A stretch of 64,000 nt of DNA from Skermania sp. ID1734 (GTDB lineage Bacteria; Actinomycetota; Actinomycetes; Mycobacteriales; Mycobacteriaceae): NCBI RefSeq assembly GCF_007489285.1, contig NZ_VLIY01000011.1:1-64000 (forward strand), written 5' to 3'. Numbering within the stretch: position 1 is the first letter of the stretch; each line of letters starts with the position of its first letter. The notes below the pieces were generated by a model. The model was given only the letters and a program-made list of their open reading frames with translations. It was not told the DNA's origin and did no database searches. This document shows, one piece after another, positions 1,468-23,025 of the stretch. Both the position numbers and the translations under genes were made by a program.

Positions 1468-1491
1468 TGTCGTCACAACTGTCGTCAACCC
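1468..1491 (+). repeat. Two tandem 12-bp repeats (TGTCGTCA...), putative integrase arm sites, left group
   Basis: TGTCGTCACAAC is followed directly by TGTCGTCAACCC: two 12-bp units sharing TGTCGTCA. Three more units of the same motif lie at 1686-1721. Short directly repeated motifs on both sides of a tRNA-derived core are typical of arm-type binding sites of tyrosine recombinases. The interpretation is inferred; the repeats are plain in the sequence. Confidence 0.6.
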
Positions 1492-1510
1492 AGACATTTA
1501 AGACAAAGGA

Positions 1511-1612
1511 AGATCTTCCCGAAACCACGAAAACCGCCGAATCTCATTGAGACCCAACGGTTTTCGCAAGTGGAGCTAAGGGGACTCGAACCCCTGACCC
1601 CCACACTGCCAG
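1511..1612 (-). repeat. tRNA-Ala 3'-half plus terminator, displaced copy (att-like direct repeat 1)
   Basis: This ~101 bp stretch repeats 2609-2709 with only a few mismatches and one indel. It contains the last 42 nt of tRNA-Ala (1571-1612, identical to 2668-2709, ending exactly in the anticodon loop) and the downstream hairpin with AAAACCG/CGGTTTT arms. Beyond 1612 the sequence diverges and no 5' half of a tRNA follows, so this is not a working tRNA gene. A tRNA 3' half duplicated up to the anticodon loop is the usual footprint of an integrative element. The copy is flanked by 12-bp tandem repeats on both sides. Confidence 0.85.
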
Positions 1613-1685
1613 GCGCAGGCAGACCACCTGATCCTGGCGATTCCGCCGCTAATTAGAGCGTTGCCGGAGGGGTCCGGAACGGAAA

Positions 1686-1721
1686 TGTCGTCACGATTGT
1701 CGTCACAATTGTCGTCAACTT
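1686..1721 (+). repeat. Three tandem 12-bp repeats (TGTCGTCA...), putative integrase arm sites, right group
   Basis: TGTCGTCACGAT, TGTCGTCACAAT and TGTCGTCAACTT follow one another without a gap. They share the TGTCGTCA core of the two units at 1468-1491. The groups sit about 20 bp before and 75 bp after the tRNA-derived repeat at 1511-1612, giving the layout of a phage-like attP or of a junction between two tandem elements. Functional assignment is inferred. Confidence 0.6.
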
Positions 1722-14025: not shown

Positions 14026-15471
14026 TCAGGTGCGTGAAACGGCCGTCGATTCCAGGTCGGATAGCAACTCCCTCGCCTCTGCCGCCGAAGCGGCAGCGGG
14101 TGCAGATCCCCACATCCGCCGACCGTTGGGCTCCTGCAGGAACATCAGCGACACCGCGCCGATCACTCCGGCGATGATCAGGTAGTAACCGGGCCAGTTC
14201 AGATCGCCGGTCACGCTGACCAGGGCGCCCACCACCACCGATGTCGTGCCCGCGAACAACGACACGGAGATATTGAAGGAGATCGACAGCCCGCCGGCGC
14301 GGACGTTGGTCGGAAACAGCGACGGCAGCGTCGACGGCATGGTGGCACTGAAACAGATCAGCAGCAGTCCCATCGTCAGCAGTCCGAGGAAGATCGTCAC
14401 CCCGGTTTCCGCGCGGATCAGCAACACCATCGGCATCGCCAGGACGATCAGCCCGACCGAACCCACCCACGCAATCGGTTTGCGGCCGATCCGATCCGAC
14501 AACAACCCCAGCAGCGGAATGAGCACCACGGCCACTGCCATCACCACGATCTGCAGCACCTGCGAGACGGTCGAGGAAACTCCTTCGCCGCCTTGCTTGT
14601 TCGGCATCGTGTCGGTGACGTAGGTGGGCATGTAGGAGGTGAGCATGTAGTTGGTGACGTTCCACGCTAGTACCAAACCCATGCAGACCAGCAGGTACGG
14701 CCACAAGCGCAGGATGTCACGCAACTCTTGCCCGGCTCGTTGCTCCTTCTCGCGCTTCTCCGCCTCTTTCTCCAGTTCCAGGAACGCGGGTGTGTCGGCT
14801 AGCCGCATCCGGAGGTAAACGCCGACCGCACCCAGCGGCAACGCCACGAAGAACGGAATCCGCCAACCCCACGACAGCAACTGCTCGTGGCTCAGCGCGG
14901 CGTCGGCCACCGTCACGACGATGGCGCCCAACAGGTAACCGGTGAACGTGCCGAATTCGAGCCAGCTGCCCAGAAAGCCACGGCGCCGGTCGGGCGCGTA
15001 CTCAGCGATGAAGGTCATGGCGTTGCCGTATTCGCCGCCAGTGGAAAAGCCCTGCACTAGCCGGGCGACGAGGAGCAGCATCGGCGCGGCGATCCCGATC
15101 TTGCTTTCGGCCGGAATGCACCCGATGGCGAAGGTGCCCAACGCCATCAGGATCATCGTCGTTGCCAGGACCTTGTTGCGGCCGATCCGGTCGGCGAGCG
15201 GGCCGAAGAACAGCCCGCCGAAAGGCCGCACCAGGAACGCCACCGCAAACAATCCGAAGGTCGCGATGGTCCCGGCCGTGTCGCTCAGGTCGCGGAAGAA
15301 GACGTCGCGGATCGTGGGTTCGAAGTACGCGTAGACGCCGAAGTCGTACCACTCGGTGATGTTGCCGACGGCCGCGGCGCCGATCGCCCGTCGAATGACC
15401 GGTGGGTCCGTGACGACGATGTCGTCCAGCGACCACTTCCGCGAGCGCTCGCGCGGAGCCAGGATCGCCAT
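14026..15471 (-). CDS. MFS metabolite:H+ symporter (MHS family, ProP/KgtP-like)
   Basis: 481 residues, 12 predicted helices. The segments AAAVGNITEWYDFGVYAYF and LVRPFGGLFFGPLADRIGRN are typical of the MHS family, which imports proline/betaine, oxoglutarate, citrate or shikimate with protons. A strong GAGGAGG precedes the ATG. The gene is convergent with gdhA (15 bp apart). The substrate cannot be told from sequence; a cytosolic basic/acidic loop (about 245-265) precedes TM7. Confidence 0.88.
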   Translation of the reverse strand: MAILAPRERSRKWSLDDIVVTDPPVIRRAIGAAAVGNITEWYDFGVYAYFEPTIRDVFFRDLSDTAGTIATFGLFAVAFLVRPFGGLFFGPLADRIGRNKVLATTMILMALGTFAIGCIPAESKIGIAAPMLLLVARLVQGFSTGGEYGNAMTFIAEYAPDRRRGFLGSWLEFGTFTGYLLGAIVVTVADAALSHEQLLSWGWRIPFFVALPLGAVGVYLRMRLADTPAFLELEKEAEKREKEQRAGQELRDILRLWPYLLVCMGLVLAWNVTNYMLTSYMPTYVTDTMPNKQGGEGVSSTVSQVLQIVVMAVAVVLIPLLGLLSDRIGRKPIAWVGSVGLIVLAMPMVLLIRAETGVTIFLGLLTMGLLLICFSATMPSTLPSLFPTNVRAGGLSISFNISVSLFAGTTSVVVGALVSVTGDLNWPGYYLIIAGVIGAVSLMFLQEPNGRRMWGSAPAAASAAEARELLSDLESTAVSRT

Positions 15472-22555: not shown

Positions 22556-22665
22556 ACAGAAACCTCCTCGCCGACTGTGCATCCAGTGGTATTCCACGGG
22601 TACAACACTTCTTGCTGTCGGCAAGGAGGTCTCAGATATGAAGTTGTGCGTTCAAAAGTGGAGCT
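22556..22665 (-). repeat. ssrA 3' flank, resident copy (right boundary of island)
   Basis: This is the counterpart of 19784-19892. It starts cagaaacctcctcgccgac and contains ggaggtctcagatatgaag, then aaaagtggagct, the tmRNA 3' end. Within it, cctcctcgccgac and gtcggcaaggagg (22563-22575 and 22617-22629) are nearly perfect inverted repeats about 40 nt apart. That makes a hairpin downstream of ssrA that could serve as its terminator. Confidence 0.6.
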
Positions 22666-23025
22666 GCCGGGAATCGAACCCGGGTCCTCCGCCGCGTCTC
22701 CAGGGCTTCTCCGTGTGCAGTTCGCTGTGTCTCTACTTGGATCTCCCGGTCTCGCGAACTAGCCGAGATGACGATCCCAGTCGCTGTTTGATGTTCCGCC
22801 CGCCTCCGCGACCGAGACGAACGGTGAGCCCTCTAGCTGATGCCAGTACCCGGACCGAGGGCGAACCCGGACTGACAGACACGCTCTACTGCTTAGGCAG
22901 CGAGAGCGTAGTCGCGCTGATTGGAATCGGCGCTTAATTGGTTGCAACGACGCTTACGGTGGTCTCTTGCCTGCACCGACACGCTTCCCCTAGATCAACG
23001 TACGCAGTCGAAACCGTTCAGCCCC
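22659..23025 (-). ncRNA. ssrA: tmRNA (transfer-messenger RNA)
   Basis: The 5' end GGGGCTGAACGGTTTCGACT and the 3' end GGTTCGATTCCCGGCAGCTCCA pair as the tRNA-like acceptor (GGGGCTG/CAGCTCC) with a canonical T-arm and discriminator A; CCA is not encoded. The resume codon and tag read ADSNQRDYALAA followed by TAA, preceded by alanine charged on the RNA. I recall this tag, or a one-residue variant, from mycobacteria. It frees stalled ribosomes together with SmpB, whose gene lies 2.7 kb to the right. The 3' end is the anchor of the 19.8-22.7 kb island. Confidence 0.97.

Follow-up and report, generated by a model that had tools for sequence, protein, structure and literature searches.

Arm-type repeats around a displaced tRNA-Ala half in Skermania: a probable tandem att junction of small, integrase-less cassettes

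The window is the whole stretch of DNA that was analysed, the first 64 kb of contig C3 of Skermania sp. ID1734 (assembly of 5.12 Mb in 56 contigs). The contig begins inside an insertion sequence of the IS256/Mutator family, whose 3' end occupies 1-292 on the plus strand (PF00872 Transposase_mut, E 1.4e-13). On the same strand a Fic-domain gene follows at 293-1066 (PF02661, E 1.7e-17). The motif HPFLDGNGRTGR can be read from its sequence, and its 5' end has apparently been cut by the insertion sequence. An ORF of 111 aa with CxxC motifs and no Pfam match lies at 1099-1434 on the minus strand and also belongs to the left cassette. Two overlapping plus-strand genes come after an intergenic region. 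The one at 1821-2129 encodes an MntA-like nucleotidyltransferase antitoxin with the motif GSX10DXD (PF01909, E 5.6e-13), and the one at 2119-2442 a HepT-like HEPN ribonuclease toxin in which RX4HXY reads RNLLIHGY (PF01934, E 4.5e-20). Adjacent genes with these two motifs make an MntA-HepT (MNT-HEPN) toxin-antitoxin (TA) pair. ARAGORN places an intact tRNA-Ala(GGC) at 2667-2740 on the minus strand. Farther along, at 22658-23025, the window also holds a tmRNA gene with the tag ADSNQRDYALAA.

The intergenic region contains two groups of short repeats around part of a second tRNA-Ala. TGTCGTCA starts at 1468 and 1480 in one group and at 1686, 1698 and 1710 in the other, with a spacing of 12 bp in both. 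The coordinates in the preliminary description, two copies at 1468-1491 and three at 1686-1721 flanking a displaced tRNA-Ala 3' half, are exact. All of these features are on the minus strand, where the repeat reads TGACGACA. The displaced half, which is the core, lies at 1571-1612 with a 7-nt anticodon loop, CTGGCAG, at 1606-1612, and an att-site profile matches 1567-1719 with 123.5 bits. Starting with the first anticodon-loop base and continuing through the 3' end, it has the sequence of the intact tRNA-Ala(GGC). The similarity runs on through a terminator-like inverted repeat at 1502-1570, giving 102/111 identities to 2600-2709. The corresponding terminator-like segment after the intact tRNA is at 2600-2666 on the minus strand and is supplied by the right cassette; the intact tRNA itself is restored by integration and marks attL. 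A spacer at 1613-1685, equal in length in most homologous units, separates the core from the triplet of arms (3 x 12 bp). The triplet is the upstream (P-type) set of the right, MntA-HepT cassette. Its repeats stand at -110, -98 and -86 from GTGTGG, as they do in mycobacterial, Nocardia and Nocardiaceae units. The pair (2 x 12 bp) is the downstream (P'-type) set of the left cassette, and its counterpart is the two-arm set at attL of integrase-bearing elements.

A further arm was absent from the preliminary description. At 2576-2583 on the minus strand, 79 nt past the end of the intact tRNA, lies a degenerate arm, TGTCGTCG (CGACGACA in the sense of the tRNA). This place is homologous to that of the junction arms, and the sequence is the counterpart of the junction arm at +78. 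It is the downstream arm that the right cassette has at attL. Since it is degenerate, the right cassette is possibly immobile. Read in the sense of the tRNA, the order is tRNA-Ala (2740-2667), MntA-HepT, arms (1721-1686), spacer, tRNA half (1612-1571), terminator-like segment, arms (1491-1468), small ORF, Fic gene and the end of the IS256-type transposase.

The 8-mer alone is unremarkable in the window, with 6 copies found against 2.65 expected. The 12-bp-spaced pair TGTCGTCANNNNTGTCGTCA occurs three times in the whole 5.12-Mb genome, and all three are at the junction at 1468-1721. The reversed control of this pair has no match in the same 5.12 Mb, and 20 Mb of order-3 Markov sequence contained no spaced pairs and no triplets. 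The preliminary description had named many tandem TGTCGTCA arrays elsewhere in the genome as grounds against an att site; they were searched for and not found.

No integrase is present inside the locus by ORF and Pfam reading. Integrase, replicase and translocase genes are all lacking from 1-2740, so the locus is not an AICE. The right cassette (1613-2702, 1.1 kb) carries MntA-HepT only, without integrase or transfer genes. It was originally proposed that two elements stand in tandem here. The junction holds up, but since the right segment is a 1.1-kb integrase-less cassette these are not two full-size elements. The left one was said to carry the Fic gene and the IS; what we see is a Fic cassette that has been cut by the IS256-type element. 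Its far end is outside the assembly. The IS256-type element has 7 identical copies in the genome, several of them at contig ends. It breaks the assembly, as several contigs start in it, and with 7 copies of the IS tail the neighbour beyond the left contig end cannot be named. The preliminary description had suggested looking to the left for a third tRNA-Ala 3' half and an integrase. The contig ends in the IS, the assembly has no third half, and the best integrase match elsewhere in this genome is a 282-aa frame with 34% identity over 236 aa, which is not close. The unit nearest to that of the window is in the Nocardiaceae MAG G031 (contig JAJFUQ010000054.1), where two units lie 1.58 kb apart. 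An integrase of the arm-associated lineage was not found in G031 either. With no close integrase in either genome, the array in the window may be a relic.

The architecture is not confined to Skermania. Our search pattern was two repeats at 12-bp spacing plus the tRNA core at the right distance, and nothing else. It matches 46 stretches in 84,980 species genomes, where by a rough estimate random sequence would give about 0.2. Almost all of them are in Mycobacterium, Mycolicibacterium and Nocardia, at the same tRNA. Aligned, these units have three TGACGACA repeats at -110/-98/-86 from GTGTGG, a near-constant spacer, the tRNA 3' half with its anticodon-loop core, and two downstream arms. When the window's own DNA was used as the query it found 2 of 401, the mycobacterial units being too diverged, and a sequence model built from 43 units recovered them. 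At a unit threshold of E<=1e-14, at least one unit is present in 69 of the 396 sampled Mycobacterium species. Most of the listed model matches are tRNA-only at about 49 bits, and these were left out of the unit counts. Downstream arms are present beside 15 of 29 intact tRNA-Ala copies that adjoin elements, versus 0 of 17 empty copies in relatives. A few units (L153-L157) have three arms and the core, but their sequence departs from the tRNA soon after the anticodon loop. They are possibly integrations at secondary sites, or decayed units.

Phages and plasmids were considered as carriers and rejected. The viral contig collection has no match to the same functional pattern, and earlier, shorter patterns gave only chance matches in coding sequence there. 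Phage records have nothing but the 36-nt tRNA core in common with the locus. The mycobacterial prophage prophiGD05-1 and TPA4 of Tsukamurella use the same tRNA-Ala and have this core, but the att stretches read contain no GACGACA arm arrays and the integrases are only about 22-23% identical. Plasmid matches are to the intact tRNA only.

The division of the arms can be read from complete elements. A complete 23-kb element in Mycobacterium sp. shizuoka-1 (G425) is bounded by an intact tRNA-Ala on one side and a displaced half on the other. At its attL there are exactly two repeats after the intact tRNA, without the upstream set. At its attR three repeats precede the displaced half and none follow it. 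The Nocardia pneumoniae element L103 divides its arms in the same way, which agrees with the original premise that the ends of a single insertion have arms on one side only. Since complete single elements have the two-arm set at attL only and the three-arm set at attR only, three plus two arms at one site make an attP-type junction. A circle joining both ends of a G425-type element would have three arms, the core and two arms, and this is the arrangement in the window. Wherever there is enough sequence to tell, a site with both sets lies inside a tandem array, at a junction between units. In Mycobacterium gastri (L096) and in L097, for example, small cassettes stand in tandem, each with its own recombination site. 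These comparisons support 1468-1721 as a tandem junction between elements. Next to the attR end of the integrase-bearing L103 element, at 14374-15284 of the oriented minus strand, is a pair that looks YefM/YoeB-like in sequence. Mycolicibacterium litorale F4 has a 10-kb att-bounded segment at the same tRNA-Ala (L094, 1879-12115, minus strand) with arsenic-resistance-like genes and no recognisable integrase.

The 23-kb G425 element encodes a tyrosine integrase (PF14659 + PF00589), an HTH_17 Xis-like protein, RepSA (E 4.6e-133) and an FtsK-like translocase. An integrase, a RepSA-type replicase, an FtsK/TraB-like translocase and tRNA att sites are what defines an AICE, so by its predicted gene set this is a pSAM2-like AICE. 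It runs from L092 1222 to L093 4704 (G425:C33:110222-133704) and, from the look of the sequence, also has genes of the MMPL transporter, MCE-like, P450 and TetR kinds. Ten sampled Mycobacterium species share its integrase at 100% identity, which suggests that the AICE has spread very recently. Where the terminal DNA was compared, five genomes agree at 99.96% or more over 2.5-5.7 kb and a sixth at 99.86% over 0.7 kb, and the homology stops at the 3' end of the tRNA. Further species have integrases with 59-95% identity.

A search for the same arm motif at related integrases had been suggested, and it succeeded. The arms stand beside one integrase lineage, at 11 loci with 59-100% identity. At 9 of the 11 the integrase is 110-2918 bp from an intact, arm-bearing tRNA-Ala. 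The other two have doublet arms near the integrase, and the stretch examined does not include the tRNA. Integrases of this lineage are found in 20 of 50 unit-bearing genomes and in none of the 30 genomes without units (Fisher p 2.3e-5), but the test overstates independence since ten of the 20 carry one recently spread element. Two genomes (G556 and G697) have the AICE and then a further unit about 10 kb on. It must be noted that 30 of the 50 unit-bearing genomes have no close integrase, so the distribution fits decayed remnants too.

Most units, including that of the window, bound segments of about 0.8-3 kb from core to core without a functional integrase, and arrays reach four units in a row. 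TA or TA-like families occur in most of the 28 small cassettes, usually as one module each. A Pfam census of their 59 ORFs gave 8 AAA_14-DUF4143 ATPases, 3 BrnT, 3 Fic/Doc, 2 MazF-like with MazE, 2 AbiEii, and one each of MNT-HepT, DUF5615 PIN-like, ParE, PIN and Phage_integrase. The one Phage_integrase match is an apparent fragment, in L126. No TA families were found in 55 control ORFs from the flanks. The AAA_14-DUF4143 ATPases are the commonest cargo, in 8 of 28 cassettes (L096, L097, L099, L105, L106 and L129). Counting them as TA-like is our own reading, and their frequency hints at a role comparable to that of addiction modules. In many cassettes the last stop codon is 6-55 nt before the first arm. 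The dN/dS of cassette genes is mostly 0.06-0.2, which indicates purifying selection.

The same cassettes recur in different positions. BrnTA is second in L097 and L110 and first in L107 and L125, with different neighbours. MazEF is third in M. gastri and first in L149, and DUF4143 type 1 is first in M. gastri and third in L097. BrnTA alignments start at -46 from the tRNA 3' end, in the anticodon loop, and finish at most 3 nt from the next tRNA end regardless of what surrounds them. L126 and L141 have 767 bp in common at 92.6% identity, against 79.3% for their flanks. L098 and L105 show the opposite, with flanks 92.9% identical and different cassettes. Such contrasts and shifting positions are to be expected if cassettes are transferred at a fixed site. 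As far as sequence comparison can show, the units of transfer are small cassettes bounded by arm/core sites and lacking a functional integrase.

One can imagine a scenario in which nothing but decay is at work. Successive AICEs would have entered the tRNA and then been stripped of integrase and transfer genes by deletions. The inert remainder would have kept its TA genes because deleting them is harmful. Decay to a CIME followed by accretion is a described route to tandem ICE/IME structures (PMC5704250). It would account for the many unit-bearing genomes without a close integrase, for degenerate units and attL arms such as the fourth unit of L096 and 2576 in the window, and for the integrase fragment in L126. 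Against it, the cassettes are compact, with stop codons often near to the first arm and genes under purifying selection. They also recur across species and positions with exact core-to-core boundaries, and the excess identity of the L126/L141 segment over its flanks points to transfer of the cassette. We regard passive accretion as a serious possibility, if somewhat short of a probable one. Homologous recombination between repeated tRNA/att segments after DNA transfer, without any site-specific step, could use the segments of about 150 bp that array units share at 80-95% similarity, and the frequent absence of an integrase would pose no difficulty. But then the limits of homology should be scattered along the repeat, and they fall at the anticodon loop. 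The attR-like units in which unrelated sequence follows the core (L153-L157) also suggest site-specific secondary targets. We find this explanation unlikely.

The preliminary description itself raised another scenario, that the attP of an element, or a single circular element, was captured whole and the left side is ordinary chromosome. In its favour, the left far end is not visible and the assembly has no third tRNA half. Against it, other sites with both sets lead into further cassettes where the sequence suffices, and the Fic gene on the left belongs to a frequent cargo family of such cassettes. An attP captured beside a restored tRNA is in any case equivalent to a tandem junction. We consider this scenario quite improbable. 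The repeats might also be operators of the TA genes or the tRNA with no role in recombination, being short direct repeats in intergenic DNA with MntA-HepT starting 100 bp away. This hardly seems credible, since the distance from repeat to core is fixed whatever genes adjoin, and the repeats are missing at empty tRNA-Ala copies and accompany integrase-bearing ends.

We argue that 1468-1721 is probably a tandem att junction at tRNA-Ala(GGC) of integrase-less, mostly TA-bearing cassettes that share their att sites with AICEs. The comparisons establish the arm anatomy and its conservation, the partition of arms between attL and attR, their joining in tandem junctions, and the company of one integrase/excisionase lineage. 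In the sense of the tRNA the locus would consist of attL (the intact tRNA and a degenerate two-arm set), the MntA-HepT cassette, the junction of three arms, core and two arms, and the IS-cut Fic cassette. The GACGACA 12-bp repeats are putative arm-type sites of the tyrosine integrase of this lineage. Strand exchange would take place in the 7-nt anticodon loop of the tRNA core, where we place it because the homology limits fall there. The helper is probably a pSAM2-like AICE, whose integrase with Xis would insert and excise the cassettes either in trans or, along with the AICE itself, in cis. Secondary targets that match the core would sometimes be used, and units of the L153-L157 type are then expected. 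The TA module would guard an excisable cassette against loss. The array in the window would have been built by an integrase that is now missing from the assembly. Taken as a whole, this would be a non-integron cassette system of actinomycetes, in which minimal cassettes of a TA module and an attP form arrays at tRNA-Ala, are moved in trans by the integrase/Xis of AICEs sharing the arm code, and are each retained by their TA module. We propose the whole of it tentatively, as something quite possible rather than expected.

It is worth comparing the locus with known systems. CIMEs related to ICESt1 of Streptococcus thermophilus also lack integration and transfer genes, are bounded by att sites and are stacked with integrase-bearing relatives at one target. 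The right cassette has no integrase or transfer genes and retains attL, with its degenerate arm, as well as attR, the complete junction. Cassettes of the kind in the window differ from CIMEs in that they are very small (0.8-3 kb) and usually have one TA-like module, with up to four in a row. The same cassette is also found in many species and positions, and junctions have the full 3+2 arm sets. The 23-kb element at the tRNA gene, with its integrase, Xis-like protein, RepSA and FtsK-like translocase, resembles AICEs of the pSAM2 family. The cassettes share att sites with AICEs, and the integrase fragment in L126 is the sole intermediate seen of a gradual AICE deletion. AICEs in tandem have been described in Frankia and Streptomyces avermitilis, and the Mycobacterium AICEs of a 2011 survey had serine recombinases with one exception (PMC3218068). 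In contrast, the integrase of the present lineage at tRNA-Ala is of the tyrosine type, and trains of cassettes lacking an integrase follow it. Arrays in (sedentary) integrons are also rows of small cassettes with their own sites, often with TA modules, that depend on one integrase encoded elsewhere. However, the sites here are double-stranded, of the attP/attB type, and combine arm repeats with a tRNA core in place of a folded attC. The integrase is of the phage/AICE type (PF14659 + PF00589), and no attI platform or shared promoter was seen. The locus in the window is not an integron, since its sites consist of a tRNA core and 12-bp direct repeats instead of attC. It would work like an integron-style cassette array, and in formal terms it would be accretion of the CIME type at the att site of an AICE.

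In the open-access literature we found CIME accretion and AICEs but nothing on arrays of TA cassettes at tRNA-Ala; subscription papers were outside the search, so an earlier description is possible. A recurring, TA-dominated array of integrase-less cassettes at tRNA-Ala with a conserved arm code thus appears to be undescribed in the open-access literature. Its signature of three 12-bp arms, a fixed spacer, the tRNA-Ala core and two arms finds cassette arrays in about one sixth of the sampled Mycobacterium species. The idea of the integron, cassettes sharing one integrase, is hereby extended to att sites of the phage/AICE type. The finding also suggests one possible route by which chromosomal TA modules spread and build up in mycobacteria: tiny site-specific cassettes that borrow the integrase of a conjugative element would carry them as cargo and might be anchored by them.
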